46,535 nucleotides of DNA from a virus, in IMG/VR virus record IMGVR_UViG_3300009104_000033, positions 1-46,535 of that record; one strand, written 5' to 3'. Under the pieces are notes generated by a model, which did not search any database, was not told the DNA's origin, and saw only the letters and a list, made by a program, of their open reading frames with translations. A program made the position numbers and the translations under genes. Positions 12,964 through 46,535 of this stretch are shown in pieces (the stretch's first letter is position 1; the number at the start of each line of letters is the position of its first letter).

Positions 12964-13362
12964 ATGAATGACAATTACAGACCTAGTGGTCAATTTGCAG
13001 GCGACATGGATCGCAACGAAGTGGAGATGGACTTAAATAAGTTCATGGCTATGATAGAGGAGATCGGTCAATTAAAAGACAAGATCAGGGAGTTAGAAGA
13101 TGTTAAGAACAATAATCCGCACCAACGCTGGATATTCTTAGCGCAAGCGGTGGATTCTTGGCGGATATTCCCAAGAGCATTTTTAACTGTATATATAATA
13201 TTGCTCTATTACACTGTGGTTTGGTTCATGGATTTACCAGACCCAACCTTTGAGCAATCAGGTTTAATCTCAGTAATAGTTGGAGCAGGGGCAGCTTGGT
13301 TCGGACTTTATGCAGGAACGAGTGGAAGTTCTAAAAGTTTCAAGGGTGAAGATAAGGGTTAA
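12964..13362 (+). CDS. Two-TM membrane protein, putative holin
   Basis: 132 aa. The N-terminal half is charged and helical (EVEMDLNKFMAMIEEIGQLK), followed by two membrane segments, AFLTVYIILLYYTVVWFMDL and LISVIVGAGAAWFGLYAGTS, with a short loop. The ending GAGAAWFGLYAGTSGSSKSF resembles the holin-like membrane proteins of gene transfer agents and marine phages. It sits before two further small membrane proteins and the curli genes. A holin role is plausible but unproven. Confidence 0.7.
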   Translation: MNDNYRPSGQFAGDMDRNEVEMDLNKFMAMIEEIGQLKDKIRELEDVKNNNPHQRWIFLAQAVDSWRIFPRAFLTVYIILLYYTVVWFMDLPDPTFEQSGLISVIVGAGAAWFGLYAGTSGSSKSFKGEDKG

Positions 13363-13655
13363 TGGAGTATTTCAATCTTATAGCAGAAGTAGGCGCACCC
13401 ATAGCAGGAGCTTTGGTCGCAGGGGTGTTTATCTTTATTATTATGAAACAGATTATGGGTGGGGTAGTGAATCAAATCAACACCCTTAAAGGCTTTACGG
13501 AAAGTTTAATCACTAGAGTTAAAACCATAAACAACGATATGATTAGATTGGACACCAGTGTAAGTGCTGCTTTGGAATTGACACCAGACCTTGACCGAAT
13601 AGCTAGAACTGAAAACTTTGTAGAAGATGGAACCATAGATGCCAGACGAGACTAA
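13362..13655 (+). CDS. Small membrane protein with coiled coil, copy 1
   Basis: 97 aa with an N-terminal membrane segment (GAPIAGALVAGVFIFIIMKQ) followed by a coiled-coil region with TRVKTINNDMIRLDTSVSAA. It is clearly related to the next gene: both have an N-terminal membrane helix and then I-x-x-(L/N)NDMIRL. The layout recalls BhlA/UviB-type holin-like proteins. It is coupled by a TAATG overlap to both sides. Confidence 0.7.
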   Translation: MEYFNLIAEVGAPIAGALVAGVFIFIIMKQIMGGVVNQINTLKGFTESLITRVKTINNDMIRLDTSVSAALELTPDLDRIARTENFVEDGTIDARRD

Positions 13656-13909
13656 TGGATATAGCCCAATTAATCGCAGACTTTGGATTCCCCATTGTGG
13701 CGATGGTTGGTCTTGGTTACTTTGTTTACTTTGTCTGGGTTATGATTACAAAGGTCATAAACCCTACCATTAAGGATATGCACTTTACATTGATTAAACT
13801 CATTGACCAAATACGAATGTTAGATAACGATATGATTAGATTACAACAAAAGGTGAACACAGTTTTGCAGATGAAAGAGAATGAAAAGAAAAGCAAACAA
13901 ACCAAGTGA
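13655..13909 (+). CDS. Small membrane protein with coiled coil, copy 2
   Basis: 84 aa, a paralogue of the preceding protein. It has one membrane segment (FPIVAMVGLGYFVYFVWVMI) and then MLDNDMIRLQQKVNTVLQM. The duplication suggests that the pair works as a hetero-oligomer. The C-terminal lysine-rich end overlaps the csgF-like gene by 29 bases, which ties this membrane pair to expression of the curli cassette. Confidence 0.7.
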   Translation: MDIAQLIADFGFPIVAMVGLGYFVYFVWVMITKVINPTIKDMHFTLIKLIDQIRMLDNDMIRLQQKVNTVLQMKENEKKSKQTK

Positions 13910-14447
13910 TGTAGTATTTCAATACTATAAGAAAAAACCCAACTATAAGTTGATGGTTATAGTTTTGATAAATCTTTTTTTCTTGTTAGCAGTGGGTAAT
14001 CTATACTCAGATCAATTAGTGCATAAGTTCGGTAGTCCCAGTTTTAATGGAATTAATCAATCCGCACACTACTTAACGATTGATGAGCAGGAAAGAACTA
14101 GAGCAGAAAAGATTGCCGAAGATATACAGGATGCTTTGGAAGAAGCAGAGCGTGAAGCTGATAATACAGTGCTTGCCAAGTTTATTCGTAATCTGGAATC
14201 AAGGATTTATTCAACACTGGCAAAGGATATTTCTGAGTCTTTGTTTAACTATTCTGGTATTCCTACCGCAGATAATCCTATTGCAGGGGAGATAAACCTA
14301 GAGGGCAACATACTAAAATGGATCAATGATGGGACCACCATTACCTTAATTATTGAAGAATGGTTTGATGGGGTGCTTATATCTACGACAGAGATTGTTA
14401 TTCCAGTAGGTAGTTTTGGTGGTTGTTGGGTTGATTGTGACGGATGA
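13881..14447 (+). CDS. csgF: CsgF-like curli assembly factor
   Basis: 188 aa. After a basic start and a hydrophobic signal segment (MVIVLINLFFLLAVGNLYS), the mature part begins with HKFGSPSFNGINQS, matching the F-x-x-P-x-F-x-G segment with which E. coli CsgF plugs into the CsgG pore. The rest follows the family plan: a helical stretch ending in LAKDISESLFNY and a C-terminal beta sheet (NILKWINDGTTITLIIEEWF). The ATG at 13953 is an alternative start giving a normal-length signal peptide. It overlaps csgG by four bases. Known role: stabilises CsgG and holds curlin at the cell surface. Confidence 0.8.
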   Translation: MKRKANKPSDVVFQYYKKKPNYKLMVIVLINLFFLLAVGNLYSDQLVHKFGSPSFNGINQSAHYLTIDEQERTRAEKIAEDIQDALEEAEREADNTVLAKFIRNLESRIYSTLAKDISESLFNYSGIPTADNPIAGEINLEGNILKWINDGTTITLIIEEWFDGVLISTTEIVIPVGSFGGCWVDCDG

Positions 14448-15280
14448 AATGGTTATTTGTCATAGTGGCTTTTTTTCTTAATGGCTGTGCTTCCATAGCC
14501 CTCAACTCCGATAATGAAAACTGCTTAGACCCCTTTTTCCTCTGTGTTCAAGGACCACAAATAGTACCGACTGCAGCTACCCAGCTATTAAATCTTCCGC
14601 CCCCAAACAATAAAGCAGTAGTGGCTGTTTATGATTTCCCAGATTTAACAGGGCAAAGAAAGTCCAACGATAATATAGCCAGTTTCAGCACAGCAGTAAC
14701 TCAAGGTGGCGTGGATATTCTGATAGCTGCTCTACGAGATGCAGGTAGGGGTAACTGGTTTGCGGTGGTGGAAAGGTCAGGCTTGGATAGTTTGACTAGA
14801 GAAAGACAGCTCATTAAAAACACCAGAGATACTTATGCAGGAGAAGGGGGAAATGTTCTCAAGCCCTTGCTTTACGCAGGTTTAATCCTTGAGGGTGGGA
14901 TTATTTCTTACGATACCAACCTTAGAACAGGGGGAACAGGAGCCAGATATTTAGGCATAGGCGCTAAAAATCAATACAGGGAAGATAAAGTAACTGTGTC
15001 TCTAAGGGCAATATTGGTGCAGACAGGAGAGGTGCTGCTTACTGTGACCTCTACAAAAACTATTTTATCCACAGGCAGAGGCACTGATTTGTTTCGTTTT
15101 TATGAATTGGGAACAGAACTAGGTGAATACGAAAGCGGAAGCACAGAGAACGAGCCTATAGGTCATGCTGTTAGAGCAGCTATAGAGGCTGCAGTGTATG
15201 GTTTGGTTATTCAAGGATTGGAAAAAGAGGTCTGGGATTTTAATTATGATACACTTATATCAGAAGTTACGGAGGATTAA
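14444..15280 (+). CDS. csgG: CsgG-like curli secretion channel (outer-membrane lipoprotein)
   Basis: 278 aa, close to E. coli CsgG in length. It has a lipobox ending at C15 (FFLNGC) and then AVVAVYDFPDLTGQRKSND, FSTAVTQGGVDILIAALRDA, FAVVERSGLDSL, ILEGGIISYDTNLRTGGTGA and TSKTILS-like TSTKTILS; all match CsgG block by block. The pore-constriction phenylalanine is kept (F81) but the neighbouring asparagine of E. coli is serine here (S80). CsgG forms a nonameric outer-membrane pore for unfolded curlin. The C-terminus is shorter than in E. coli. Confidence 0.92.
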   Translation: MKWLFVIVAFFLNGCASIALNSDNENCLDPFFLCVQGPQIVPTAATQLLNLPPPNNKAVVAVYDFPDLTGQRKSNDNIASFSTAVTQGGVDILIAALRDAGRGNWFAVVERSGLDSLTRERQLIKNTRDTYAGEGGNVLKPLLYAGLILEGGIISYDTNLRTGGTGARYLGIGAKNQYREDKVTVSLRAILVQTGEVLLTVTSTKTILSTGRGTDLFRFYELGTELGEYESGSTENEPIGHAVRAAIEAAVYGLVIQGLEKEVWDFNYDTLISEVTED

Positions 15281-15281
15281 G

Positions 15282-15959
15282 ATGAAAATACTTCTTAGCG
15301 TTATTATATTGTTTGTCTCGGCAAGTGCGTTTGCAGGCAACAACGATATATATATAACACAAACAGGGACTGGGCTAACCTTGACGATTGACCAAATAGG
15401 AGCAACCAACAAAGTCGGTACTTCACAGGCAAGGGTTACACTCAGTGGAACCAGCATGACAGTTGACCTAGATCAGATTGGCGATACCAATACAATCGCT
15501 GCCAGCATCCTACAAGGTAATTCTTCTAGTTGGACATACAAGGCAACAGGAGATAGTAATGTGGGAACATTTGCGGTGGGAGCCACAGGTGATTCTGCAA
15601 GCACAGACTTTGACTTTGAAGCGACAGGGGATTCAAATGTGTTGACCTTCACACAGGGGGATGCAGCAACAGCTACAGGCGGTAATCAGGATTTTGTGGT
15701 TACAGGCACATCCAATGATATTAATGTGAAATGTAATGTTGTGGGCTGTATTAATAACTGGACTGTTTCTGGAAACTCCAATGATATAGATACAATACAA
15801 TCAGGCAGACAAGATCACGATATTACAGTTGCCCTTACTGGAAGCTCTAACAATGTAGATGTTGACCAAACCGATACAGCGAGTACCAATGTAGCCAATA
15901 TAGTTTCAACCACGACTAATGGGGTTATTAATGTGGATCAATGTGCAAGTGGCTGTTAA
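15282..15959 (+). CDS. Curlin-like secreted repeat protein 1
   Basis: The start is the ATG at 15282 with a GGAGG ribosome site; the frame also extends upstream inside csgG. The 225-aa product has a clear signal peptide (MKILLSVIILFVSASAFA) cut before GNND. The mature chain is made of short repeats with the curlin pattern, such as DIYITQTGTGLTLTIDQIGA, TMTVDLDQIGDTN-type units and many G-x-SN or GDSN turns. CsgA/CsgB repeats carry the same Q-x-G-x-x-N pattern. It is the likely amyloid substrate of the CsgG pore encoded just upstream. Two cysteine pairs are unusual for curlin. Confidence 0.8.
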   Translation: MKILLSVIILFVSASAFAGNNDIYITQTGTGLTLTIDQIGATNKVGTSQARVTLSGTSMTVDLDQIGDTNTIAASILQGNSSSWTYKATGDSNVGTFAVGATGDSASTDFDFEATGDSNVLTFTQGDAATATGGNQDFVVTGTSNDINVKCNVVGCINNWTVSGNSNDIDTIQSGRQDHDITVALTGSSNNVDVDQTDTASTNVANIVSTTTNGVINVDQCASGC

Positions 15960-17023
15960 TTTTACTGGCAGGGTCACTTAACGCAGCAGAAATTGGGGAA
16001 ATCTCAGAGCTGAGAGGAATTGGGGAGATCACTCGCCAGAATACTAATGATGCTCTTGTTGCAGAACTAGACTCCGATATTTATTCTTTTGATGATGTAC
16101 GAACAGGAAATGGTCGTATGGCAATACAGTTCTTGGATTCTTCTATATTAAAGCTGACCGAACACTCCAAAGTAGTCATAGACAACTATATCTATGACCC
16201 AGACCCAAGCAAAACCAAACTAGCTCTGAATATGGCATCAGGCACAGCCCGATTTATAACAGGTAAACTTGGGGGAATTAATAAAAATAATATTCGTATA
16301 AGAACACCGAGCGCCAGTATTGCGATAAGAGGCACGGATTTTACGACTACAGTAGATGAATTGGGCAGGAGCCTGATTATACTGCTCCCTAATCCAGATG
16401 GTACTTCCTCTGGTGAGATTGCGGTGGAAACATGGTCAGGAACAGAAATACTTAACGAGCCTTTTCAGGCAACAATGGTGTCCACTTTTGAATCCAGACC
16501 CACTAAAGCGGTTGTTCTGGGAAATATAACACTGGGTCTAATAGATAATATGCTTATTATCAACAAACCCCCTGCGATTGTGCAGGCTGTTGAGGAACAA
16601 AGCGGTGAAGTAAAAACGGAATTAGACAAAGACTTCTTTGAGGATGCTCCTGATTTGGATAAAGATTTCTTGGAAGTTGAGGAAGAAATAAGTCGTTTGG
16701 ATATAGACCTGTTGAGTTTTGATTTCCTAGTGGATTTGTTAGCCATTGTGGAAGCAGGAGCGAAAAAGAAAAACACATCAGGGGGAGAATTGGAAGGTGT
16801 GGAATTGACTGGTATTATTCCAAAATATGATCCGACCTACCAGACCTACACTTTTGTAGATGGGGCTTATCTGTATTTGGTGCATCAGGGAACCAATACT
16901 TTTGATATTGCTCTGGATAAGTACGCTGCAGCTTATCTGAATATAGATACTGCAGGAATTGTAATGGAGATAGAAGTTAATGGCGCAGGCGATAACACTA
17001 TTATTATTTTTCAGTCTCCTTAG
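15941..17023 (+). CDS. FecR-domain periplasmic protein with curlin-like C-terminus
   Basis: 360 aa, overlapping curlin-like gene 1 by 19 bases. It has a signal peptide (MCKWLLILLAGSLNAAE) and then a FecR-type domain: GEITRQN, DVRTGNGRMAIQFLDSSIL, LTEHSKVVIDNYIYDP, and IRIRTPSASIAIRGTDFTTT. A middle acidic helical part (residues 210-265) follows. The end contains LYLVHQGTNTFDIAL and NGAGDNTIIIFQ, which look like curlin repeats. FecR domains bind cell-wall or signalling partners in the periplasm; here the protein may anchor or sense the curlin-like fibres. Confidence 0.82.
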   Translation: MCKWLLILLAGSLNAAEIGEISELRGIGEITRQNTNDALVAELDSDIYSFDDVRTGNGRMAIQFLDSSILKLTEHSKVVIDNYIYDPDPSKTKLALNMASGTARFITGKLGGINKNNIRIRTPSASIAIRGTDFTTTVDELGRSLIILLPNPDGTSSGEIAVETWSGTEILNEPFQATMVSTFESRPTKAVVLGNITLGLIDNMLIINKPPAIVQAVEEQSGEVKTELDKDFFEDAPDLDKDFLEVEEEISRLDIDLLSFDFLVDLLAIVEAGAKKKNTSGGELEGVELTGIIPKYDPTYQTYTFVDGAYLYLVHQGTNTFDIALDKYAAAYLNIDTAGIVMEIEVNGAGDNTIIIFQSP

Positions 17024-17783
17024 TTTCAATGCGTTGGCAGGTAACAACCTGATAACCATTCAAACCAAAGGCACTGGAACAACGATAACAACCAAGCAGG
17101 CAGGCAGTAGCAATACCACAGGCATTTATTGTGGTCTGGGAAGTTTTGATAATTCATTGGTCAATACCCATAACTGCGATAACGCCACCATTACTGCCAA
17201 TGTAACTGGTGTTTCTAATATCGTTTACTCACAATCGGTATGGTCAAACCACGATGGACAGAGTTGGATTACTACTGTAACAGGGGATGATAATTACGCA
17301 GTTATAGACATGGATGAAGATGACAATACCTCAACCATTATTCAAACAGGAGATGACAACCAAGCGTGGATATTAGGTTCTGGCGATGACAATGTGTATA
17401 AGATAGAGCAAACAGGAGATGACTACTACGCCAAAATCTATGCCTTTGGGGATGATTCTGATGTTTGGATAACACAAGAAGGCACAGGAAATCATAATGC
17501 TTATGTTCTTAATTATCCAAATGCTGACAATAATTCAACCAGACTAATCCAAAAAGGCTCAGGAAATAAAGATGCTGATATATTCTTTTATAGTGGTGCT
17601 GACGACAATGATGTTAATTTAACCCAACAGGGAAACGGAGCGCATGGCTCAAACATGAAGTTCTACACAGATGACTATGATGTAACAGTGGTTCAAAAGG
17701 GAGCCACAAACAAATCCTATGTAGCGACTTTTAACTGCACTACAAACTGCACTAAAACCATAAGCATAACGCAGAGTGATTAG
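16980..17783 (+). CDS. Curlin-like secreted repeat protein 2
   Basis: 267 aa, starting inside the end of the FecR gene (44-base overlap) with a GGAG ribosome site. Its signal peptide ends LLSFNALA before GNN, the same junction as curlin-like protein 1. The mature chain has repeated units such as STIIQTGDDNQAWILGSGDD, YKIEQTGDDYYAKIYAFGDD and DVNLTQQGNGAHGSN: the curlin Q-x-G-x-x-N pattern with many GDD turns that could bind calcium. Two Cys-x-x-x-Cys pairs lie near the C-terminus. It ends the plus-strand unit, overlapping a minus-strand gene. Confidence 0.8.
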   Translation: MAQAITLLLFFSLLSFNALAGNNLITIQTKGTGTTITTKQAGSSNTTGIYCGLGSFDNSLVNTHNCDNATITANVTGVSNIVYSQSVWSNHDGQSWITTVTGDDNYAVIDMDEDDNTSTIIQTGDDNQAWILGSGDDNVYKIEQTGDDYYAKIYAFGDDSDVWITQEGTGNHNAYVLNYPNADNNSTRLIQKGSGNKDADIFFYSGADDNDVNLTQQGNGAHGSNMKFYTDDYDVTVVQKGATNKSYVATFNCTTNCTKTISITQSD

Positions 17784-18820
17784 ATTTTGGGTCTAATTAA
17801 TCTGCTTGATTTGTAGATTTTTTTGCCCTTCTCAAAAGTTAAGTGTTCTTTTACAGTGGCATTAATAACTACGAACTTGTCTAAAGGAAGAAGGGTCTCC
17901 TTAATTCTGGGGTTGTCAGCAAGATATTCATAGCTTATTTTTTTATTAAACGATGAGTCTAATGCTCCATTGGTTATAAACCGCTTTCCATCTTCAGTTA
18001 TCCATTTGAGTTTAAGTTGTAGTCCATACCCACCCTCAATTATTTCCCACTCTAATAACATAGCTTTGACTTTGGTTTTTTCGCCTGTTTTACCTATATG
18101 TTTGTTTGCGTTCATTGGTATATGGCGACCCAAGACCTCTACAGTTTTGGCTATGTTTTTTTCAACTTCGTTTTTGAAAATCTTTTTATTTTTCCAGCGA
18201 CATATCTCTTTGGGCTGTATTGTTTCTATGACAGACCAAGAACCTTCGTAAATATCATCGTCAGGCTCTCTAGGGTCAAAATGGTTTCTAGCCCCTCTAA
18301 TACAATTTGCCAATCCTTTCTTCAGAGCTTTGTTCCCAATGGCAATCCGTTTTCTGAACTTATCTTTAGAATCAAGAGCTAAAGCAATAGCAATCTTTTG
18401 TCTCTCTTTTTCAACATCATCAGAGGCGTTGTAGTCTATCCCACAGCCCTTTTTACCACTGTGTGTTTCGCTAACAGGTATATGCTTTAAGCTAGAGCCA
18501 AAATGATTGGTCTCAAAAGAGATTTTAAATTTGTGGTTTTTTATTTTTTCACCGACAATAAGTTCGGGGTTGTTTGCGATTCTCTCATGGTAGCCCCATT
18601 TAGAATGTGTCTCTTTTTCCTTCTCTATATATTTATTAGCCTTCTCAACAGCCTTATCAAGATCAGCGCCTAAGATTTCCTCATGACCGTTATATGTCAC
18701 TATGAAGTCTTGGGCGTGGCTTTTATCGGGATTAATATATGCAACCACAGACCTAAGCGTGTACCTTTTGTCTTTTTCACCCATAGAAATATAATAAAAA
18801 ATTATTCGTTTTTCTTTCAT
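17780..18820 (-). CDS. Unknown protein, possible nucleic-acid binding, 346 aa
   Basis: No family recognised. The last part (GGYGLQLKLKWITEDGKRFI, then FVVINATVKEHLTFEKGKKI and a final SSRL) resembles the OB-like ATVKxH ends of phage zinc-finger/ssDNA-binding-like proteins. It is translated from an ATG overlapping the upstream stop (ATGA). It is the last gene of a three-gene minus unit and meets the curlin-like gene 2 tail to tail with overlapping stops. Confidence 0.7.
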   Translation of the reverse strand: MKEKRIIFYYISMGEKDKRYTLRSVVAYINPDKSHAQDFIVTYNGHEEILGADLDKAVEKANKYIEKEKETHSKWGYHERIANNPELIVGEKIKNHKFKISFETNHFGSSLKHIPVSETHSGKKGCGIDYNASDDVEKERQKIAIALALDSKDKFRKRIAIGNKALKKGLANCIRGARNHFDPREPDDDIYEGSWSVIETIQPKEICRWKNKKIFKNEVEKNIAKTVEVLGRHIPMNANKHIGKTGEKTKVKAMLLEWEIIEGGYGLQLKLKWITEDGKRFITNGALDSSFNKKISYEYLADNPRIKETLLPLDKFVVINATVKEHLTFEKGKKIYKSSRLIRPKI

Positions 18821-19970: not shown

Positions 19971-20000
19971 ATAGTATGCAACAACACATGAAAAAGTCAA
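19971..20000 (-). promoter_or_regulatory. Possible promoter for the minus-strand unit 17780-19937
   Basis: Read on the minus strand: TTGACT (19995-20000), an 18-base spacer and TACTAT (19971-19976). It lies in the first codons of the cyclase gene, so the two divergent units share their start region. The -10 match is only moderate. Confidence 0.4.
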
Positions 20001-21796
20001 TACATATTGGAATACTTTTTATACTTATAGTGTTGGGTGTTCCCCTTATTTTTCAGGTCTCTCCATTAGAAACGCTGAAACTGAAGACCTTTGATGCCTA
20101 TATTCCCCAGCAAGAGCCTTCTAACTACTTCTCTATTCTCAATATAACAGAGGAAGATATAGCCAAAGAAGGGGGCTATCCCTTGCCTAGACAACGCCTA
20201 GCTGAGATTCATAATGCCTTAATGGAGCGTGGAGCTATCGGTGTGGGTTGGGTGATTGCCTTTCCACAGCCAGATCGCTTTGGTGGGGATAAGTATTTTG
20301 CACAGAGCCTATCTCAAGGACCAGCAGTGATTGCTGCCTTTGAGAACGACAACGGAGAGTACCCATTAACCACAGGCACAGTGATATTGGGAGAAGATAG
20401 GGGTGGTTATAAAGCTACAGGGGTCGTAGAAAACATAGACATTCTAAAGGAAAGTGCCAGTCAAGGTATAGCGGTAGCCCCAGTGGAAGTGGATATGTTG
20501 GTCAGAAGGATGCCTTTATTGTTAAGAACGCCTGATGGATGGGTCTCAGCCTTCGGAACTGAGGTCTTAAAGGTTCTTGCAGGAGCTGATACCTATGTCA
20601 TTAAAACCAATAACAATGGCTTAGAGGAGATTAGAGTGCGTGGAATACCGCCTGTTCCAGTGGATTCTTTAGGTAGAAAGTGGATCAGTTGGGTAGATAC
20701 TCCCCAGTTTGAGCTAAGTGAGGTGTGGTCAGGAGAAGCAGAAATAGAAGGAAGGTTTGTCTTTGTCGGTGTCACAGCTTTGGGGGTAATGCCTCAAATA
20801 GCGAGTCCTGCAGGTCTCTTGGAACCGCATAAAATACAGGCAGCTCTCTCAGAGTCCATATTGATTCCCAACAGTCCTTATATACCAGACTATGCCCTAG
20901 CCTTAGAAACGCTTTTATTCTTGCTCTCAGTGGCTCTTATGTGGCTTCTGCTGAACGCTTTAGGGATAACATGGGGGGTAGCAGCAGGAAGCACTATTTG
21001 GCTCTCTACGGGCTATTTTGGCTATTGGCTCATTCAACAGGGATTATTGATAGATGTGACATGGGCATTGATCTCGCAGTTTATTACAGCGACTGTCGCT
21101 TTCTATCTCCGATTCAGAGAACAGTTCAAGCTCAGACAACAAATCAAGAAACAGTTTGAACATTATCTTGACCCCAGACAGGTTAAACGATTACAAGACA
21201 ACCCAGAACTATTAAAGCTAGAAGGTGAAAGAATGGAAGCCACCTTCCTGTTTACCGATGTCAGGGGCTTTACCTCTATGTCTGAGAAGCTACAACCAGA
21301 AGAAGTTACCGAGATTATTAACATTGTGTTGACCCAGCAGGTAGAGGCAGTGCAACTGTTTGGGGGCATGGTGGATAAGTTTATTGGGGATGCTATGATG
21401 GCGATATTCAATGCTCCCTTGCCTTTAAAGGATCATCAAGACGCTGCCATTAATGCAGGCATTGTTATTATGGAAAACATGGAAAAGGCAAATGACATAC
21501 TGGCTGAGAAAGGAATTGAACAAAAAATAGAGATTGGAATTGGCGTTAATACAGGTGAAGCGGTGATTGGAAACATGGGGTCCGATACTCGTTTTGACTA
21601 TTCTGCCATAGGGGATTGCGTCAATCTAGCAGCTCGCCTTGAGTCTTCCACAAAAGAAGTGGGTTGTCCTATACTTATTGGTCGTGCTACTATGAAGCGA
21701 TGCACTTTTACTTTGGTGGAGAAAGACCCTATCAAAGTGAAAGGCAAGGCTAAAGATATAAAAATCTATACTTTGGGAGAAAAATATGGGTATTAA
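19976..21796 (+). CDS. CHASE2-domain class III adenylate cyclase
   Basis: 606 aa. Domains in order: membrane helix (residues 9-26), CHASE2 extracytoplasmic sensor (about 35-280, with YFSILNITEEDI, YPLPRQRLAEIHNALMERGA and RFVFVGVTALGV), three further membrane helices (about 300-385), then a class III cyclase domain. Metal aspartates D428 (FTDVRGFT) and D472 (KFIGDA), adenine-selecting K468 and D547, and transition-state N550 and R554 are all present, so it should make cAMP. It probably faces the periplasm with its sensor. It heads the lysis unit. Upstream AAAGG is the ribosome site; an ATG at 19988 is an alternative start. Confidence 0.92.
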   Translation: MQQHMKKSIHIGILFILIVLGVPLIFQVSPLETLKLKTFDAYIPQQEPSNYFSILNITEEDIAKEGGYPLPRQRLAEIHNALMERGAIGVGWVIAFPQPDRFGGDKYFAQSLSQGPAVIAAFENDNGEYPLTTGTVILGEDRGGYKATGVVENIDILKESASQGIAVAPVEVDMLVRRMPLLLRTPDGWVSAFGTEVLKVLAGADTYVIKTNNNGLEEIRVRGIPPVPVDSLGRKWISWVDTPQFELSEVWSGEAEIEGRFVFVGVTALGVMPQIASPAGLLEPHKIQAALSESILIPNSPYIPDYALALETLLFLLSVALMWLLLNALGITWGVAAGSTIWLSTGYFGYWLIQQGLLIDVTWALISQFITATVAFYLRFREQFKLRQQIKKQFEHYLDPRQVKRLQDNPELLKLEGERMEATFLFTDVRGFTSMSEKLQPEEVTEIINIVLTQQVEAVQLFGGMVDKFIGDAMMAIFNAPLPLKDHQDAAINAGIVIMENMEKANDILAEKGIEQKIEIGIGVNTGEAVIGNMGSDTRFDYSAIGDCVNLAARLESSTKEVGCPILIGRATMKRCTFTLVEKDPIKVKGKAKDIKIYTLGEKYGY

Positions 21797-22209: not shown

Positions 22210-22650
22210 ATGAAACTCTCTATGGCATTAGGGGCAGCTCTCTTTCTAGTCTTGAGTGCTTTTTTCGCTTATCGTACTGTCATGGTCGCTAAGATTGAGA
22301 AGCATGAAATAGAGCTGCAAACCTGTGTTAATAACCAAGCTGTGTTAGAGGGCAAGATCACTGAGCAGAACAACACCATTCAGAAGCAGATAGACAACGC
22401 AAAGAAAACCCAAGCACAGATACAGACGCTCAATAGCCAATACCAGAACTCGCAAAAAGCAGTCTCAGACCTGAGAAATAAGTTTGCAAGACACAATCTT
22501 GAAGGCATGGCACTAGCCAAACCCACCCTATTACAAGGTAAGGTTAATAAAGCCACAGCCAGAGTGCTTGCAAATTTAACAGTAATTACCAACCCAGAAC
22601 AATTTAATGAAGAAGTTAATACCAATACTGATTCTAGTAATAACAACTAG
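22210..22650 (+). CDS. Inner-membrane spanin (Rz-like)
   Basis: 146 aa. An N-terminal membrane anchor (residues 5-22) is followed by a periplasmic coiled coil (EITEQNN-type heptads up to KAVSDLRNKF) and ARHNLEGMALAKPTLLQGKV, the end typical of Rz-like proteins of T4-like and marine phages. The i-spanin joins the o-spanin across the periplasm to fuse the membranes at lysis. The o-spanin gene starts inside its 3' end, as for Rz/Rz1. Confidence 0.82.
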   Translation: MKLSMALGAALFLVLSAFFAYRTVMVAKIEKHEIELQTCVNNQAVLEGKITEQNNTIQKQIDNAKKTQAQIQTLNSQYQNSQKAVSDLRNKFARHNLEGMALAKPTLLQGKVNKATARVLANLTVITNPEQFNEEVNTNTDSSNNN

Positions 22651-23002
22651 CGGTTGTTCAACACTAGGCGTTCTCGGTGGTCTGGGAGAACGAGCAGTCC
22701 CAGAAGTGAATCCAGTTGAAGTGGTAACAGTAAGCAAGCTACCGCCCATCTATCATCCACCCCTACCAGAGCCTATAGAATCGGCTAATTTAGAGTGGAA
22801 GATATTATCGCCAGATGTCATGCAAGCAGAACTGGATAAAATGAACGCAGGGGAAGAACCGAGAGTGGCGTATTATGGCTTGACTTCTCAAGGTTATGAA
22901 AACCTATCAATGACAATGGGCGAGATTACAAGATACATTGAGCAAATACTACATATCGTAGGATATTATCAAGAACTAGATGAGGAAGAAGAAGATGAGT
23001 AA
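22607..23002 (+). CDS. Outer-membrane spanin lipoprotein (Rz1-like)
   Basis: 131 aa with a lipobox (VITTSGC, C17) and proline-rich sequence after it (KLPPIYHPPLPEPIES), as in o-spanins. It starts 44 bases before the end of the i-spanin gene in another frame, the classic Rz/Rz1 arrangement. It is longer than lambda Rz1, with an extra C-terminal helical part that ends very acidic. Confidence 0.8.
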   Translation: MKKLIPILILVITTSGCSTLGVLGGLGERAVPEVNPVEVVTVSKLPPIYHPPLPEPIESANLEWKILSPDVMQAELDKMNAGEEPRVAYYGLTSQGYENLSMTMGEITRYIEQILHIVGYYQELDEEEEDE

Positions 23003-23405
23003 TGCACCAGATGCGTTTGTCTATAACGCAGAATTAACAAAAATCATAGACGGAGACACCCTTAGATGCCATTTGGACTTAGGAATGTCATGTTGGCTAC
23101 ACAACCAAACAGTGAGGTTGGCAGGAATAGATACACCTGAATCAAGGATCAATATCAAAAGATACCCCCATAGGGCTGATGAAAAGGTCTTGGGATTAAA
23201 AGCTAAAGAGCGATTAAAGGAGTTATGCAGTGGAAGGTTTAAAGTTAAATCATTGGGTAAAGGCAAATACGGAAGAATCTTGGGGATTCCTTATACTGAA
23301 GATGGCGATGATATTTGCGCTATTCTTATTGACGAGGGGCTGGCATCAGAATACTGGGGCGGAACCAAGACCGCTAAAATCCAACCAGACGGAACATGGG
23401 CGTAA
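22995..23405 (+). CDS. Thermonuclease-like (SNase) nuclease
   Basis: The start is the ATG at 22995 (overlap of eight bases with the o-spanin gene); an upstream in-frame ATG at 22980 is less likely. The 136-aa protein has the staphylococcal nuclease fold: TKIIDGDTLRCHLDLG (D19, D21), VRLAGIDTPE (R41, D46, E49) and GKYGRILG (R94), so all catalytic residues are present. No signal peptide is visible, so it would act in the cytoplasm, for example on host DNA or RNA. Its position inside the lysis unit is notable. Confidence 0.88.
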   Translation: MSNAPDAFVYNAELTKIIDGDTLRCHLDLGMSCWLHNQTVRLAGIDTPESRINIKRYPHRADEKVLGLKAKERLKELCSGRFKVKSLGKGKYGRILGIPYTEDGDDICAILIDEGLASEYWGGTKTAKIQPDGTWA

Positions 23406-23406
23406 T

Positions 23407-23859
23407 ATGTCAGTAAGAGTAACTTCCAAAGAAGGCATAGCGTTAATAAAAAAGTTTGAGGGGTGTGAACTAACAGCTTATCAAGATAGTGTGGGTGTCT
23501 GGACTATAGGTTATGGTCATACCAAGAATGTCTGTGAGGGCGATTGTATAACGATGGGTGAAGCAGATCGTATGCTGGAAGAAGAACTGGTTGAGTACGA
23601 AGGCTACATTAACGACATGGTAAAAGTTGAGTTAAGTCAAAATCAATTTGATGCCTTAGTCGCATGGGTATACAATTTAGGACCAACAAACCTATCTCAG
23701 AGTTCGTTATTGCGCGAGCTAAACAATGGAAATATTGCAAAAGTGCCGAGTGAAATGAGGCGCTGGAATAAGGCAGGAGGTAGAGTATTAGACGGTCTAA
23801 TCAGAAGAAGGGAAGCAGAGGCTTTGCTTTTTCTTGGTGAAGACTGGTATGAAGTATAG
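23407..23859 (+). CDS. Endolysin, GH24 lysozyme
   Basis: The start is the ATG at 23407, two bases after the nuclease stop. The 150-aa protein is a T4/P22-type lysozyme with the catalytic triad E18-x8-D27-x5-T33 (FEG, AYQD, VGVWTIGYGHT). The rest contains SQNQFDALVAWVYNLGP and LDGLIRRREAEALLF, also typical. There is no signal peptide, so release needs a holin. It cuts peptidoglycan at lysis. Confidence 0.93.
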   Translation: MSVRVTSKEGIALIKKFEGCELTAYQDSVGVWTIGYGHTKNVCEGDCITMGEADRMLEEELVEYEGYINDMVKVELSQNQFDALVAWVYNLGPTNLSQSSLLRELNNGNIAKVPSEMRRWNKAGGRVLDGLIRRREAEALLFLGEDWYEV

Positions 23860-40832: not shown

Positions 40833-41396
40833 ATGAGGTCTATGTGGCACATTTGGCAGTCTGCTCTGAGTAGCGAGGTCTGCGAACAACTATTATCTTT
40901 GCCTAAAACCCCTCTGTCTGATGGACAAGTGGGTATCAACAGTGAAAAATCAGGACTAGAGGAAGAAGTCCGAAGATCACAAATATCAGTCTTTCCCCAT
41001 AATTCAGATCAAGCCAAAGCGGTGAATGAGCTGTTATCTCCGTTTGTCATAATGGCAAATAGAGAGAATTTTGGATTTAGACTAAACAATTTTAGCGAAT
41101 TTCAATATACTGAGTATAATGAATCCGAAAAAGGATTTTATGACTGGCATCAAGATGTCCAATGGTTAAAGGATATTGAGAGTCAAAGGAAGATTTCGGT
41201 GACAGTCCAATTATCAGATGATGATTACGAGGGCGGTGAGTTTGAGTTCCATAAGGACATACCACAGCCCAGTAATATCCGCAGTCGTGGAACAGTAATA
41301 GTGTTTCCTTCTTTCTTTTATCACAGGGTAACACCAGTGACGAAAGGGGTAAGGAAAGCCATAGTAGGATGGTATGAAGGAAATTGTTTTACATAG
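40833..41396 (+). CDS. 2-oxoglutarate/Fe(II)-dependent hydroxylase
   Basis: 187 aa (a second in-frame ATG lies at 40842). The double-stranded beta-helix core is present: iron ligands H106 and D108 (DWHQDVQW) and H164 (YHRVTPV), with R174 for 2-oxoglutarate (KGVRKAIVGW). It resembles prolyl-4-hydroxylase/PKHD-type enzymes, which hydroxylate protein side chains. Placed in the virion gene block, it may modify a structural protein such as the KKAPAK-tailed neighbour or the fibre; substrate unknown. Confidence 0.87.
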   Translation: MRSMWHIWQSALSSEVCEQLLSLPKTPLSDGQVGINSEKSGLEEEVRRSQISVFPHNSDQAKAVNELLSPFVIMANRENFGFRLNNFSEFQYTEYNESEKGFYDWHQDVQWLKDIESQRKISVTVQLSDDDYEGGEFEFHKDIPQPSNIRSRGTVIVFPSFFYHRVTPVTKGVRKAIVGWYEGNCFT

Positions 41397-41407: not shown

Positions 41408-41761
41408 ATGACTGCAGGTTATCATCACTTCGTCATTGAACAAGGCGCAACATTTAGTAAAACTTTAACACTCAAGGATTCAGCAGGTAGTGTTATAAAC
41501 CTTACTGGTTATTCAGCAGGGGAGATGGATTTAAGAACCAACCACGATGCCAGTGCTACCTTTCTCACACTAACAACAAGCAATAGCAGAATGGCTTTAG
41601 GCGGTTCTGCAGGCACAGTCACATTGACTATATCAGCCAGTGACACATCAGCACTAGATATACAAGACGGAGTTTATGATCTGGAAATAACCGATGCCAG
41701 CTCCAATATATACAGAATTTTAGAAGGGACTTTTCAAGTCAGACCACAGGTAAGTAAATAA
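41408..41761 (+). CDS. Virion protein, BppU-N-like, 117 aa
   Basis: A small beta protein: FVIEQGATFSKTLTLKDSAG, GYSAGEMDLRTNHD, VYDLEITDASSNIYRILEGT. This resembles the N-terminal domain of baseplate/fibre proteins of the BppU type. The stop overlaps the fibre ATG (TAATG), so it may be a fibre adaptor. Confidence 0.7.
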   Translation: MTAGYHHFVIEQGATFSKTLTLKDSAGSVINLTGYSAGEMDLRTNHDASATFLTLTTSNSRMALGGSAGTVTLTISASDTSALDIQDGVYDLEITDASSNIYRILEGTFQVRPQVSK

Positions 41762-44700
41762 TGGCAATAAGCACAATATCAGTCAGCTCAACCGATACAG
41801 TCAATACAGTCACTGTAACTGATGCGAGCAATATAGAAGTCGTAACAGTAGGAGAACAGGGGTTAGCTGGACCAAATACGATATTGGGCAGAAGTGCAGC
41901 CGATGTCACTGCAGGCTCTAGTGATGCAGGAACGCTATTAGTTTACGATCACAGTAATACCAACTGGACAACCACAGACCGATATTCAAGCACCATCTCT
42001 GTAGGCGGACTCACTGTAGCCAGTGGGGGAATTACCTCTACGCCAACATTAAGAGTTGCCACTGTTCAATATACTGATGGCGATGCTGCCTTTTCAATTA
42101 GTGATGGCGGTGGAGTCAATATACCTGCATTAACAGTAACGACATTAAGCACAGCAGGAAAAGTTACTTTAGATAACAACGAGATAGAGGGTGGCAATTT
42201 TGACATCAATGGTGGGGATATTGCTAGTGCCACAACCATCAATAAATCACCTGTAATCACCCTAGCAGGAGACTTGTCTGGGACTGCCACTCTCACTAAT
42301 TTAGGCAACGCCACCTTAACCGCAACGATAACTGCCGATGCGACAGCTCTAGGTACAGACACCACAGGAGCTTATGTTGAAACTATATCAGCAGGAGAAG
42401 GGATAGATGTAAGCGGTTCAGGTAGCGAAACAGCAACAGTTACGATAAGCGCTGAAGATGCCAGTGATTCAAACAAAGGTATTGCGAGCTTTAGTGCTAC
42501 TGATTTCTCAGTATCAAGTGGAGCAGTAACACTCCAAGCAGAGAGAATACAAGATTTAGTAGGGGCGATGGTTTCTTCCAATACCGAGACAGGTATCACC
42601 GTAGCTTATCAAGACGGAGATGGAACATTAGATTTTTCAATCGCTGATGCTTCTGATAGCGTAAAAGGTATCGCCACCTTTGATGCAACGGACTTTTCTG
42701 TTAGTTCTGGTGATGTAACGATCAATGCAGAAAGAATATCCGATATTGTCGGAGCAATGGTTACTTCCAATACAGAAAGCGGAATAGCAGTAACTTATCA
42801 AGATGGCGATAATACGATAGATTTTGATGTGGGCGATTTTGATATTGCTTTAACTGGTGATGTTACAGGTAGCGGAACAGTCACGAATTTAGGGAATGTC
42901 AGCATTTCTACAACAGTAGCTGCAAACAGTGTAGCTCTAGGAACAGACACGACAGGCAATTATGTCGCAACCATAACAGGCGGAACAGGAATAGACTCCG
43001 ATGCAGCAACAACTGGCGAAGGAACAACGCACACATTAAGCCTAGACCTAAATGAATTAGCCACAGAAACCACGATTGCTGATGCCGACTTTATAGCAAT
43101 GGTAGATGCCACTGATGATGGCTCTGGAAAGATTACTTTTGAGAATTTAGAAGATGCCATATTCTCCTCTGTCAGTGGAGATGTCGCCATTGCAGAAGAT
43201 GGAACCGCTACTATACAAGCAAACAGCGTTGCTCTGGGTACAGACACAACTGGTAACTATCTGCTTGAAATAGCAGTGGGTGAAGGATTAGATGTTTCTC
43301 ATACTCAAAGTGAAGGCTCTACAGCTACGCTCTCAGCAGAATTAGCAACAGAAACAAACGCAGGGGTAGCCACCTTTGATGGTACAGATTTCACAGTTTC
43401 TTCAGGCGATGTCACCTTAAACGCAGAAAGAGTCCAAGACATCGTTGGAGCAATGGTTGGGTCAAACACCGAATCAGGTATAGCAGTAACCTATGAAGAT
43501 GGCGATGGAACGCTGGACTTCAATGTGAATGATCCAACCATAACCATAGATGGAGATATGAGTGGGTCAGCTACGATGACCAATCTTGGAAATACCACAA
43601 TCACTTCAACCCTAGATACAGTCAATTCCAATGTAGGCTCTTTTGGTTCAGCAACCGCAATACCAGCTCTAACAGTTAATGCAAAAGGATTAGTCACAGC
43701 AGTTAGCACTAATTCCATAGCAACCAGTTTCACATTATCAGCCGATAGTGGTTCTAATGACACCTTTAACACAGGGGAAACGCTGACCTTTAGCGGAACG
43801 ACCAACGAAATAGAAACCGCAGTATCAAACAACGCCATAACCATAGGGCTACCAGACAATGTAACGATTGGGGGAAATCTAACTGTTACAGGCAACTACA
43901 CAGTCAATGGAACAACCACAACAGTCAATACCGCAACTTTAGATGTTGAAGACCCTTTAATTAAACTGGCAAAGGCTAACAATTCTTCCGACTCAGTGGA
44001 TATAGGGATATATGGTCTATACGACACTTCAGGTTCACAAGATTTATACGCAGGGCTGTTTAGAGATGCCAGCGATAGTGGAAAATGGAAACTCTTTAAA
44101 AGCCTACAGCCAGAACCCACAACCACAGTAAACACAAGCGGAACTGGCTATGCAGTAGATACTCTAGTTGCTAATTTAGAAGGCGATGTTACAGGGGATG
44201 TTACAGGTGCTTTAACTGGAAATGCCAGCACTGCAACCGCATTAGCAACAGCAAGGACAATAGGCGGAACTTCATTTGATGGTACTGCAAATATAGCAGT
44301 AGCTTTATCGGCAACTGCAACAGCACTAGCCACTGCTCGTACTATTCATGGTGTCAGTTTTGACGGAACAGCGAATATAGACCTCACCGAAGTAGTACAA
44401 GATACAGTCGGTGCAATGTTCTCTAGTAATACAGAGACAGGAATTACAGTCACCTATGAGGATGGAGATGGCACTATTGATTTGGTGGTGGGTACTCTCA
44501 ACCAAGACACCACAGGTAATGCAGCAACAGCAACTGCACTAGCAACAGGTCGCACAATAGCCCTCTCAGGCGATGTAGCAGCCTCTGGCGTGAGTTTTGA
44601 TGGCACAGGGAACATTACCCTTAGTACGACCATTCAAGCCAACAGCGTGGCTTTAGGGACTGACACTACTGGTAACTATGTAGCCACAGTTGCGGATGCT

Positions 44701-46535
44701 GGGAACTCTCATATCACAGTAGCCAACTCTGGTGCGGAAAGTGCAGCAGTTACACTTAATATTACAGATAACGCAGTCGGTCTTGCTCAAATGGCAGGTC
44801 TGGCTAGAGGTAAGATTATATATGGTGATTCTTCAGGCAATCCTGCAGCTCTTGCAGTGGGTTCTAATGGTCAGGTCTTAAAGTCAGACGGAACGGACAT
44901 AGCTTGGGGATCAGATTCAGGATTATCAACTGAGGAAGTCCAAGACATTGTGGGGGCTATGTTTAGCAGCAATACGGAAACAGGTATCGCTGTAACTTAT
45001 GAAGATGGTGACGGAACGATTGATCTGGTGGTTGCCACTTTAAACCAAGACACAACTGGAAACGCTGCCACTGCCACAGCTCTTGAAACAGGAAGAACTA
45101 TTGGCATGACAGGTGATGTTGTTTGGACATCAGCCTCTTTTGACGGATCAGGAAATGTTACAGGTTCAGCAACAATACAGGCTAATTCGGTAGCTCTAGG
45201 CACAGATACAACAGGAAACTATGTTGATAATGTTACTGGGGGTACAGGGGTTTCAGTATCAGGTAGTGCTGGGGAAGGCTGGGAGCCTGCAATATCTATA
45301 GGACAAGCTGTAGGAACAAGTGATTCCGTTACCTTTGGTTCATTAGCTGTAGATAACTTTACGCTTAATGGCACTGAATTAGACCTCTCTAGTGGCGATT
45401 TCTTACTTGATGTCGCAGGGGATATAACCTTTGATGCCGATGGGGGCGATATTGTCCTTCAAGATGGTGGCACACAATTCGGTAAGATTTCAAAAGCCAC
45501 CAATAACATTACTCAATTCAATACGACAGATGCCTTTATTGTGCCTTTGGGAACTACAGGACAAAGACCAACTGGTACAGCAGGAATGTTTAGGTACAAC
45601 TCCACAGATGGCAAGTTTGAGGGTTATACAACTGGTTGGGGTGAAATAGGCGGTGGTGGAAGCGGATTATTCAGCACCAATAAGTTTAGCCCTAATGGTT
45701 CAACCACAGCATTTACCCTATCCACAGCACCTGCTGATGAAGATAGAGTCATGGCATTTATTGATGGTGTCTATCAAAACAAAGATTCTTACACGCTTTC
45801 TCAAGAAACAATCACCTTTGATACTGCACCAGAAAATGGCAAAACCTTAATAGTCCATGTGGTCGGCAGCACAGTATCAGGGGCAAACGCTAATTTAGAC
45901 ACCTTTACAGGAGATGGCTCAACAACCGCCTTCACACTAAACCTAGACCCAGTGACTGAGAACAACACTCAAGTCTATATAGATGGCGTTTATCAAAACA
46001 AATCAGGCTATTCTGTAAGCGGAACCACACTGACATTTAGTGCAGCTCCTGCTAATACTGCAGCCATTGAAGTTGCGACCTTTACTCAAAACACATTAAA
46101 CGCACCTGCAGATAGTTCTGTTACCAGTGCTAAGTTAAGTGGGGCATTGGTTACACCTTCAAGCCTAGATATTAATGGTAATGAGTTAATCCTAGATGCT
46201 GATGCCGATACCTCAATCACAGCAGACACAGACGACAGAATAGACATCAAGGTAGCAGGAACCGATCAAATACGAATACAAGATGGCTCAATAACGCCAG
46301 TTACCTCAGATGACATAGATTTAGGCAGCTCTAGCAAACAATTCAAAGATGCCTTTATACATGGAACGCTAGAAGCCGATGCAATTACAGTGGATGGCAC
46401 AGCTCTAAACGAATACATAGCCGATACAATCGGTGCTATGGTTGGCTCTAATACTGAGACAGGTATTACTGTAACTTACGAAGATGGAGATAATACATTA
46501 GACTTTGTAATAGGTACACTTAACCAAGATACTAC
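41761..46535 (+). CDS. Giant repetitive fibre protein (3' truncated by the window)
   Basis: The frame is open from ATG 41761 to the window end (more than 1591 codons). It is rich in T, S, G, A, D and N and made of repeats: six 26-aa units with (V/I)GAM(V/F)xSNTE(T/S)GI, five QANSVALGTDTTGNY-type units, and near the end VPLGTTGQRPTGTAGMFRYN and two F-DGVYQNK units (VMAFIDGVYQNK, QVYIDGVYQNK) common to marine phage fibres. It is probably an elongated side or tail fibre that contacts the host. The C-terminus may be the part at 1-281. Confidence 0.88.
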   Translation, partial: MAISTISVSSTDTVNTVTVTDASNIEVVTVGEQGLAGPNTILGRSAADVTAGSSDAGTLLVYDHSNTNWTTTDRYSSTISVGGLTVASGGITSTPTLRVATVQYTDGDAAFSISDGGGVNIPALTVTTLSTAGKVTLDNNEIEGGNFDINGGDIASATTINKSPVITLAGDLSGTATLTNLGNATLTATITADATALGTDTTGAYVETISAGEGIDVSGSGSETATVTISAEDASDSNKGIASFSATDFSVSSGAVTLQAERIQDLVGAMVSSNTETGITVAYQDGDGTLDFSIADASDSVKGIATFDATDFSVSSGDVTINAERISDIVGAMVTSNTESGIAVTYQDGDNTIDFDVGDFDIALTGDVTGSGTVTNLGNVSISTTVAANSVALGTDTTGNYVATITGGTGIDSDAATTGEGTTHTLSLDLNELATETTIADADFIAMVDATDDGSGKITFENLEDAIFSSVSGDVAIAEDGTATIQANSVALGTDTTGNYLLEIAVGEGLDVSHTQSEGSTATLSAELATETNAGVATFDGTDFTVSSGDVTLNAERVQDIVGAMVGSNTESGIAVTYEDGDGTLDFNVNDPTITIDGDMSGSATMTNLGNTTITSTLDTVNSNVGSFGSATAIPALTVNAKGLVTAVSTNSIATSFTLSADSGSNDTFNTGETLTFSGTTNEIETAVSNNAITIGLPDNVTIGGNLTVTGNYTVNGTTTTVNTATLDVEDPLIKLAKANNSSDSVDIGIYGLYDTSGSQDLYAGLFRDASDSGKWKLFKSLQPEPTTTVNTSGTGYAVDTLVANLEGDVTGDVTGALTGNASTATALATARTIGGTSFDGTANIAVALSATATALATARTIHGVSFDGTANIDLTEVVQDTVGAMFSSNTETGITVTYEDGDGTIDLVVGTLNQDTTGNAATATALATGRTIALSGDVAASGVSFDGTGNITLSTTIQANSVALGTDTTGNYVATVADAGNSHITVANSGAESAAVTLNITDNAVGLAQMAGLARGKIIYGDSSGNPAALAVGSNGQVLKSDGTDIAWGSDSGLSTEEVQDIVGAMFSSNTETGIAVTYEDGDGTIDLVVATLNQDTTGNAATATALETGRTIGMTGDVVWTSASFDGSGNVTGSATIQANSVALGTDTTGNYVDNVTGGTGVSVSGSAGEGWEPAISIGQAVGTSDSVTFGSLAVDNFTLNGTELDLSSGDFLLDVAGDITFDADGGDIVLQDGGTQFGKISKATNNITQFNTTDAFIVPLGTTGQRPTGTAGMFRYNSTDGKFEGYTTGWGEIGGGGSGLFSTNKFSPNGSTTAFTLSTAPADEDRVMAFIDGVYQNKDSYTLSQETITFDTAPENGKTLIVHVVGSTVSGANANLDTFTGDGSTTAFTLNLDPVTENNTQVYIDGVYQNKSGYSVSGTTLTFSAAPANTAAIEVATFTQNTLNAPADSSVTSAKLSGALVTPSSLDINGNELILDADADTSITADTDDRIDIKVAGTDQIRIQDGSITPVTSDDIDLGSSSKQFKDAFIHGTLEADAITVDGTALNEYIADTIGAMVGSNTETGITVTYEDGDNTLDFVIGTLNQDT
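42559..46506 (+). repeat. Six 78-base repeats in the fibre gene
   Basis: Copies at 42559-42636, 42748-42825, 43444-43521, 44407-44484, 44950-45027 and 46429-46506 encode (V/I)GAM(V/F)xSNTE(T/S)GI(T/A)V(T/A)Y(Q/E)DGD(G/N)T(L/I)D. All are exactly 26 codons. They resemble one another also in DNA, so they can recombine or break assemblies. Confidence 0.82.

Follow-up and report, generated by a model that had tools for sequence, protein, structure and literature searches.

Curli-type genes are already known from marine phages. CsgF and CsgG with associated genes were reported from pelagimyophages in 2020 (PMC7029224). In 2022, curli genes were described in the methylophage Melnitz with a lysis-timing and pore proposal (PMC9004378), and the order HK-CsgF-CsgG-CsgA/B-FecR-CsgA/B-AC (HK, histidine kinase; AC, adenylate cyclase) was given for HTVC023P-type podoviruses and for myoviruses, with transfer between the two (PMC9599517). 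The passages of the latter paper on the type VIII secretion system (T8SS) concern podoviruses and myoviruses only, and Siphoviridae are mentioned for other genes. Here, we analyze such a cassette in the IMG/VR virus record IMGVR_UViG_3300009104_000033, whose 46,535 nucleotides (the window, taken at full length) appear from gene content to belong to a marine lambda-like siphovirus, with genes for an HK97-type capsid, portal, terminase, tape measure, and J-like tip protein. A first-pass annotation had found a full cassette in a phage remarkable, a judgment that does not survive the report of the same set in podoviruses and myoviruses in PMC9599517. What is new, relative to the open literature and to those T8SS passages, is the module in lambda-like and T5-like siphoviruses and its lysis-gene setting; also new are the reinterpretation of the "HK" genes as holin-like, a terminal strand common to FecR and the curlins, and relatives that lack the block. 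At a probability of about 55%, we read the locus as a type VIII secretion cassette through which the host cell would release fibres of curlin-repeat protein late and in step with lysis.

On the + strand of the window, tail genes are followed by HOL-TM1-TM2-CsgF-CsgG-curlin-FecR-curlin, two minus-strand genes, and then the cyclase, Rz, Rz1, SNase, and lysozyme (Table 1). The five genes first annotated (CsgF, CsgG, curlin, FecR, and curlin) are all + strand open reading frames (ORFs) with agreeing profile matches, and homology supports their reading as a curli-type secretion cassette that has two proteins as candidate substrates. They overlap as described, except for CsgG and curlin 1, which abut with a 1-base gap, and the set is larger than proposed, with small membrane genes upstream and a CHASE2 cyclase downstream. 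Compared with the T8SS module described for pelagiphages (HTVC023P-type phages, pelagimyophages, and HTVC008M), the window matches in gene content and order, down to FecR, the second curlin, and the CHASE2 cyclase, and likewise has no CsgE. It differs in belonging to a lambda-like siphovirus and in its cyclase, which is displaced from curlin 2 by 2.2 kb holding the two minus-strand genes; the genes in the published "histidine kinase" position upstream of CsgF carry no kinase domain. Melnitz has CsgF, CsgG (43% identical to that of the window), a curlin-repeat protein, FecR, a second curlin-repeat protein, and a cyclase, but is a myovirus of OM43, and its set was described as lacking csgA and csgB (PMC9004378). 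E. coli curli shares CsgG and CsgF homologues and curlin repeats with the window, which lacks CsgE and an identified separate CsgB and has instead FecR, a CHASE2 cyclase, and small membrane genes.

Examining the neighborhood of CsgG in viral contigs, as suggested in the first-pass annotation, revealed a near-invariant order, [HOL]-TM-TM-CsgF-CsgG-curlin-FecR-curlin-cyclase, over ∼120 contigs, in which spanin, nuclease, or lysozyme genes recur directly 3′ of the cyclase or directly 5′ of HOL. When contigs L341 and L342 are compared with L062, both flanks align and 82 bp stand in place of a 5.75 kb curli block; CsgG was not found elsewhere in L341 or L342, both of which are fragments. Three TM loci with flanking sequence run HOL-TM-TM and then directly into lysozyme or spanin genes, with no curli genes. 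Because HOL/TM cassettes exist without it and because of the 82 bp for 5.75 kb replacement, the stretch from CsgF to the cyclase is a discrete unit within a lysis cassette. It is also dispensable for that cassette, since sister phages keep the holin-like, spanin, and lysozyme genes without it. In two other contigs (L149 and L150), the module has no cyclase, and curlin-FecR-curlin is followed directly by Rz-Rz1-lysozyme.

The module is found in several kinds of phage. Besides the lambda-like window, it occurs in a podovirus lineage (phrog_3287 neighbor; named relatives phage DSL-LC04, Roseobacter CRP-901, and HTVC023P), in a T5-like siphovirus lineage (terminase 49% identical to T5-like Vibrio phages, with tape measure and major tail protein), and in myoviruses. 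In the CsgG tree, window and podovirus sequences interleave, and module-bearing phages are set apart from the bacterial CsgG sampled (among the matches listed, mostly Bacteroidota). The CsgG of the window and that of podovirus fragment L002 are 99.6% identical in protein, with 1 non-synonymous and 18 synonymous changes (synonymous divergence, dS, 0.098; 0.041 for FecR), while their cyclases are only 65% identical in protein; at the DNA level, CsgF to curlin 2 is 95.8% identical and the cyclase ∼65%. This disparity indicates that the cassette moved recently between a siphovirus and a podovirus. A second podovirus contig (L007, 37.9 kb) aligns with the window over 4.7 kb at 79%, from HOL through curlin 2. 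Ratios of non-synonymous to synonymous divergence (dN/dS) were 0.016–0.20 for every gene with an estimate, curlins included, indicating purifying selection, with frame overlaps a small caveat. That the block was recently exchanged between siphovirus and podovirus, and is maintained by purifying selection, argues that it brings a real benefit. Two loci that seemed to place the full module in bacteria (L165 and L166) were judged to be phage contigs binned into metagenome-assembled genomes (MAGs), having the order TTFGARAC and falling on the viral side of the tree.

In the PDB, CsgG matched E. coli CsgG structures over residues 37–267 (E=6e-44), and it has a lipobox, LNGC, whose cysteine (C15) is invariant across the CsgG alignment. 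The CsgF profile found no match in the PDB, and its PF10614 score (24.0 bits) lies slightly below the 25.8 cut-off; its family alignment conserves an HxFxxPxFxG segment C-terminal to the signal sequence, and CsgF keeps the same position across module loci. Two other phage CsgG records were set aside or stand apart: the CsgG of Salmonella phage S.Kent 1-2-1 (a 1.5 kb unverified contig) clusters among bacterial CsgG sequences in the tree and was taken to be bacterial contamination, and the Brevundimonas jumbo phage Kabachok (L073) has a lone distant CsgG-family protein (28% identity) without other module genes.

Both curlin-like proteins have signal peptides that by eye stop before GNN, as first annotated, and the Q-x-G-x-x-N repeats noted in them exceed shuffled expectation. 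Strict QxGxxN occurs 2 times in curlin 1 and 5 times in curlin 2 (0.11 and 0.14 in shuffles), and GxxN 9 times in each (2.15 and 2.56, respectively). The two proteins are related to each other (hhalign E=1.8e-8), and by sequence either could play the CsgA or the CsgB role. Beta structure in curlin 1 had been named beforehand as a test, and the AlphaFold2 model is an all-beta repeat with a predicted local distance difference test score (pLDDT) of 83 and a predicted template modelling score (pTM) of 0.80. A variant module, HTTFGARC, in which a single curlin-repeat gene was detected, occurs in L385, L389, L395, and L400, and a single such gene was likewise detected in L066/L067 and L158/L159.

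FecR may be tied to the curlins through its C-terminus. Its predicted structure (mean pLDDT 69) comprises a PupR-type FecR domain, a low-confidence linker (205–278), and a C-terminal beta domain. Of 85 distinct FecR proteins from phages, 84 end in a strand fitting [ILV]x[ILV]xQ (∼1.3 expected by shuffling), as do 159 of 163 phage curlin-like proteins, compared with 0/6 bacterial FecR encoded near CHASE2 cyclases and 11/113 bacterial curlin-like proteins; the phage sequences are related and hence not independent, and the motif was spotted first and counted afterwards. This common end strand suggests a role for FecR in binding, capping, or nucleating the curlins. Homology to curlins over the full C-terminal domain of FecR was rejected (hhalign non-significant, probability 6%); only the terminal strand is common to both. 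The N-terminus is signal-like, FecR is the sole Pfam domain, and the protein differs from FecR/PupR-type anti-sigma regulators, which have an N-terminal anti-sigma region and a transmembrane (TM) helix, in that neither an anti-sigma domain in Pfam nor a TM segment above threshold was found. Among the ∼33 bacterial loci examined, 4 have a FecR-domain gene directly 5′ of a CHASE2 cyclase gene and on the same strand, and 2 more have the pair on opposite strands. As such pairs recur, FecR and the cyclase may have been acquired as a sensor pair. The K/GD catalytic motif of the cyclase is kept in 70 of 71 relatives. Phage-type FecR-cyclase genes also occur on two contigs (L166 and L248) of one Sphingobacteriales MAG, likely phage contigs binned into it.

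The small membrane genes upstream of CsgF may link the block to lysis. TM1 and TM2, with a single N-terminal TM segment and a coiled-coil-like tail, are homologous to genes at the same place in HTVC008M and Melnitz, and we equate them by position with the "HK" genes of PMC9599517. Pfam detects no kinase domain in TM1 or TM2; of the 31 members of their family, 23 have matches to phrog_4898 "holin" (down to 2.6e-5), and the best match to YvrJ is 0.0038. Judged from sequence, then, the published "histidine kinases" appear to be small holin-like membrane proteins without a kinase domain. The family lies 5′ of csgF in 81/81 loci with flank, where one TM gene was enough for a locus to count, and a scan seeded by the family found CsgF/CsgG in 76 of 80 loci. 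Six annotated records had first prompted the guess that TM genes occur strictly with curli genes, which was dropped once TM genes were found without them. Relatives of HOL adjoin Rz/Rz1, lysozyme, or SNase in phages lacking curli genes. By size, TM segments, phrog_4898 matches, and cassette position, HOL, TM1, and TM2 are probably lysis-cassette membrane proteins of holin type; by-eye assignment of HOL as a gene transfer agent-type holin had no Pfam support.

In the export mechanism we propose, the genes would be expressed late, given that they share a strand with the tail genes on one side and the spanin/lysozyme genes on the other. CsgG and CsgF, recognized by homology, would form the outer-membrane channel as a putative ring, and the curlin-repeat proteins would reach the periplasm via Sec and exit through CsgG. 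FecR would anchor, cap, or nucleate the curlins and connect them with the cyclase through its CHASE2 sensor, the cyclase would raise cyclic AMP, and HOL, TM1, and TM2 would set the timing. The resulting fibre coat could gather neighboring cells, debris, or virions around the burst, or shield the dying cell from other phages, and holding such material together or shielding the cell is the likely benefit to the phage. More tentatively, and at short of even odds, we envisage a mobile curli block in at least four structural lineages that plugs into a holin-spanin cassette to make lysis-timed amyloid, with FecR a structural fibre member tied to the CHASE2 cyclase and no iron regulator.

Several observations count against late, lysis-coupled fibre export. 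Of the 34 loci that have 1.5 kb of flank on both sides, just 15 had a spanin or lysozyme gene detected within 2.5 kb; the lysis-gene hidden Markov models (HMMs) behind this count were built from window genes and may miss other lysis types, and the loci were chosen by similarity to the window. The link to lysis is not universal, because the cassettes of T5-like phages and pelagimyophages are not directly beside detected lysis genes. The PF10627 HMM, which did detect the E. coli control, found no CsgE, noted early on as missing, in the window or in 15 relatives; published phage modules likewise lack it, and CsgE is enhancing rather than essential, as cited by PMC7029224. Curlin 1 scores below the Curlin_rpt cut-off (20.0 vs 20.7 bits, 4 stretches), and its fold comparison to the PDB returned nothing significant, with the CsgA fibril at rank 43 and top matches, all non-significant, mostly to beta-solenoid proteins. 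Finally, Melnitz infections showed no clumping (PMC9004378).

A purpose of export by the same machine, superinfection exclusion through a coat that blocks receptors or traps rival phages, is the strongest competing idea, though we consider it unlikely: a passage of PMC9599517 suggests it and exported curlins would be compatible with a surface coat, but the position among lysis genes suggests late expression, when exclusion would pay least. Less probable still is the Melnitz proposal (PMC9004378), also raised in the first-pass annotation, that CsgG/CsgF is an outer-membrane pore that weakens or depolarizes the envelope to aid or time lysis, with curlins as passengers. In its favor, both the window and many podoviruses have the block placed among genes for holin-like proteins, spanins, and lysozyme, but the window already has spanins and lysozyme, sister phages have this lysis cassette while lacking the block, and curlins and FecR, for which a mere pore would have no use, are under purifying selection in a fixed order. 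Because such cassettes exist without the block and the substrates are conserved, late fibre export coupled to lysis is the best-supported reading over a pore for lysis. An uptake channel for nutrients or macromolecules lacking a CsgE gate, suggested in PMC7029224 and in a passage of PMC9599517, agrees with the absence of CsgE from all records tested, but is improbable, as it leaves two conserved curlin-repeat substrates, CsgF, and the FecR curlin strand unexplained. Most doubtful is that TM1/TM2 are signalling proteins and that FecR regulates the module in response to iron, which the annotation in PMC9599517 and the constant place of the TM genes favor, but which sits poorly with TM proteins of 84–97 amino acids (aa) that match holins and recur in lysis cassettes without curli genes, and with a FecR that has a signal-like start and no other domain, and whose bacterial relatives adjoin CHASE2 cyclases.

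Table 1. Genes of the curli block and the surrounding lysis cassette in the window
Feature	Position	Strand	Evidence
HOL, 132 aa, possible holin	12964..13362	+	N-terminal coiled coil, hydrophobic helices; phrog_10198 (unknown function)
TM1, 97 aa, holin-like	13362..13655	+	one N-terminal TM + coiled coil; phrog_18771
TM2, 84 aa, paralogue of TM1	13655..13909	+	same TM family evidence
CsgF-like pore partner	13881..14447	+	signal sequence, then LVHKFGSPSFNG; PF10614 4.6e-5; phrog_35372 6.8e-31
CsgG outer-membrane channel lipoprotein	14444..15280	+	PF03783 7.3e-56; PDB CsgG 6e-44
Curlin-repeat protein 1, candidate fibre subunit	15282..15959	+	Curlin_rpt 6.8e-4; GxxN spacing; all-beta model
FecR-domain protein, C-terminal curlin-like strand GDNTIIIFQSP	15941..17023	+	PF04773 5.5e-12; PupR fold match 3.5e-4
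Curlin-repeat protein 2, candidate fibre subunit	16980..17783	+	Curlin_rpt 4.2e-10; hhalign to curlin 1
CHASE2 sensor + class III adenylate cyclase	19976..21796	+	PF05226 2.2e-25; PF00211 8.5e-20; phrog_35576 4.6e-123
Inner-membrane spanin, Rz-like	22210..22650	+	phrog_739 8.2e-7
Outer-membrane spanin lipoprotein, Rz1-like	22607..23002	+	phrog_812 2.5e-11
SNase-domain nuclease, recurrent in lysis cassette	22980..23405	+	PF00565 2.1e-11
Lysozyme endolysin	23230..23859	+	PF00959 1e-48; phrog_7 5.9e-63; domain residues 74-197

The true start of the lysozyme may lie downstream of that listed. Between curlin 2 and the cyclase, the minus-strand gene at 17780-18820 has no Pfam match and is absent from fragment L003, otherwise near-identical, where ∼120 bp occupy that spot; it appears to be a recent gain or loss. 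Elsewhere in the window, an oxygenase-like protein (by eye; 40833-41396) is encoded between capsid and tail genes, and a relative of it adjoins the curli module in L023. A very long repetitive tail-fibre-like ORF (41761-46533) leaves the record at its right end, and an open frame (3-281) begins at the left, which may reflect a permuted or incomplete record.

Why phages carry curli genes has been debated since 2020, and proposals include sibling capture, superinfection exclusion, uptake, and lysis timing. The lysis setting, the block-free relatives, the correction of the "HK" label, and the strand common to FecR and curlins make these rival proposals testable. If fibre export around lysis is borne out, phage-made amyloid released at that point would be relevant to how cells aggregate in the ocean.

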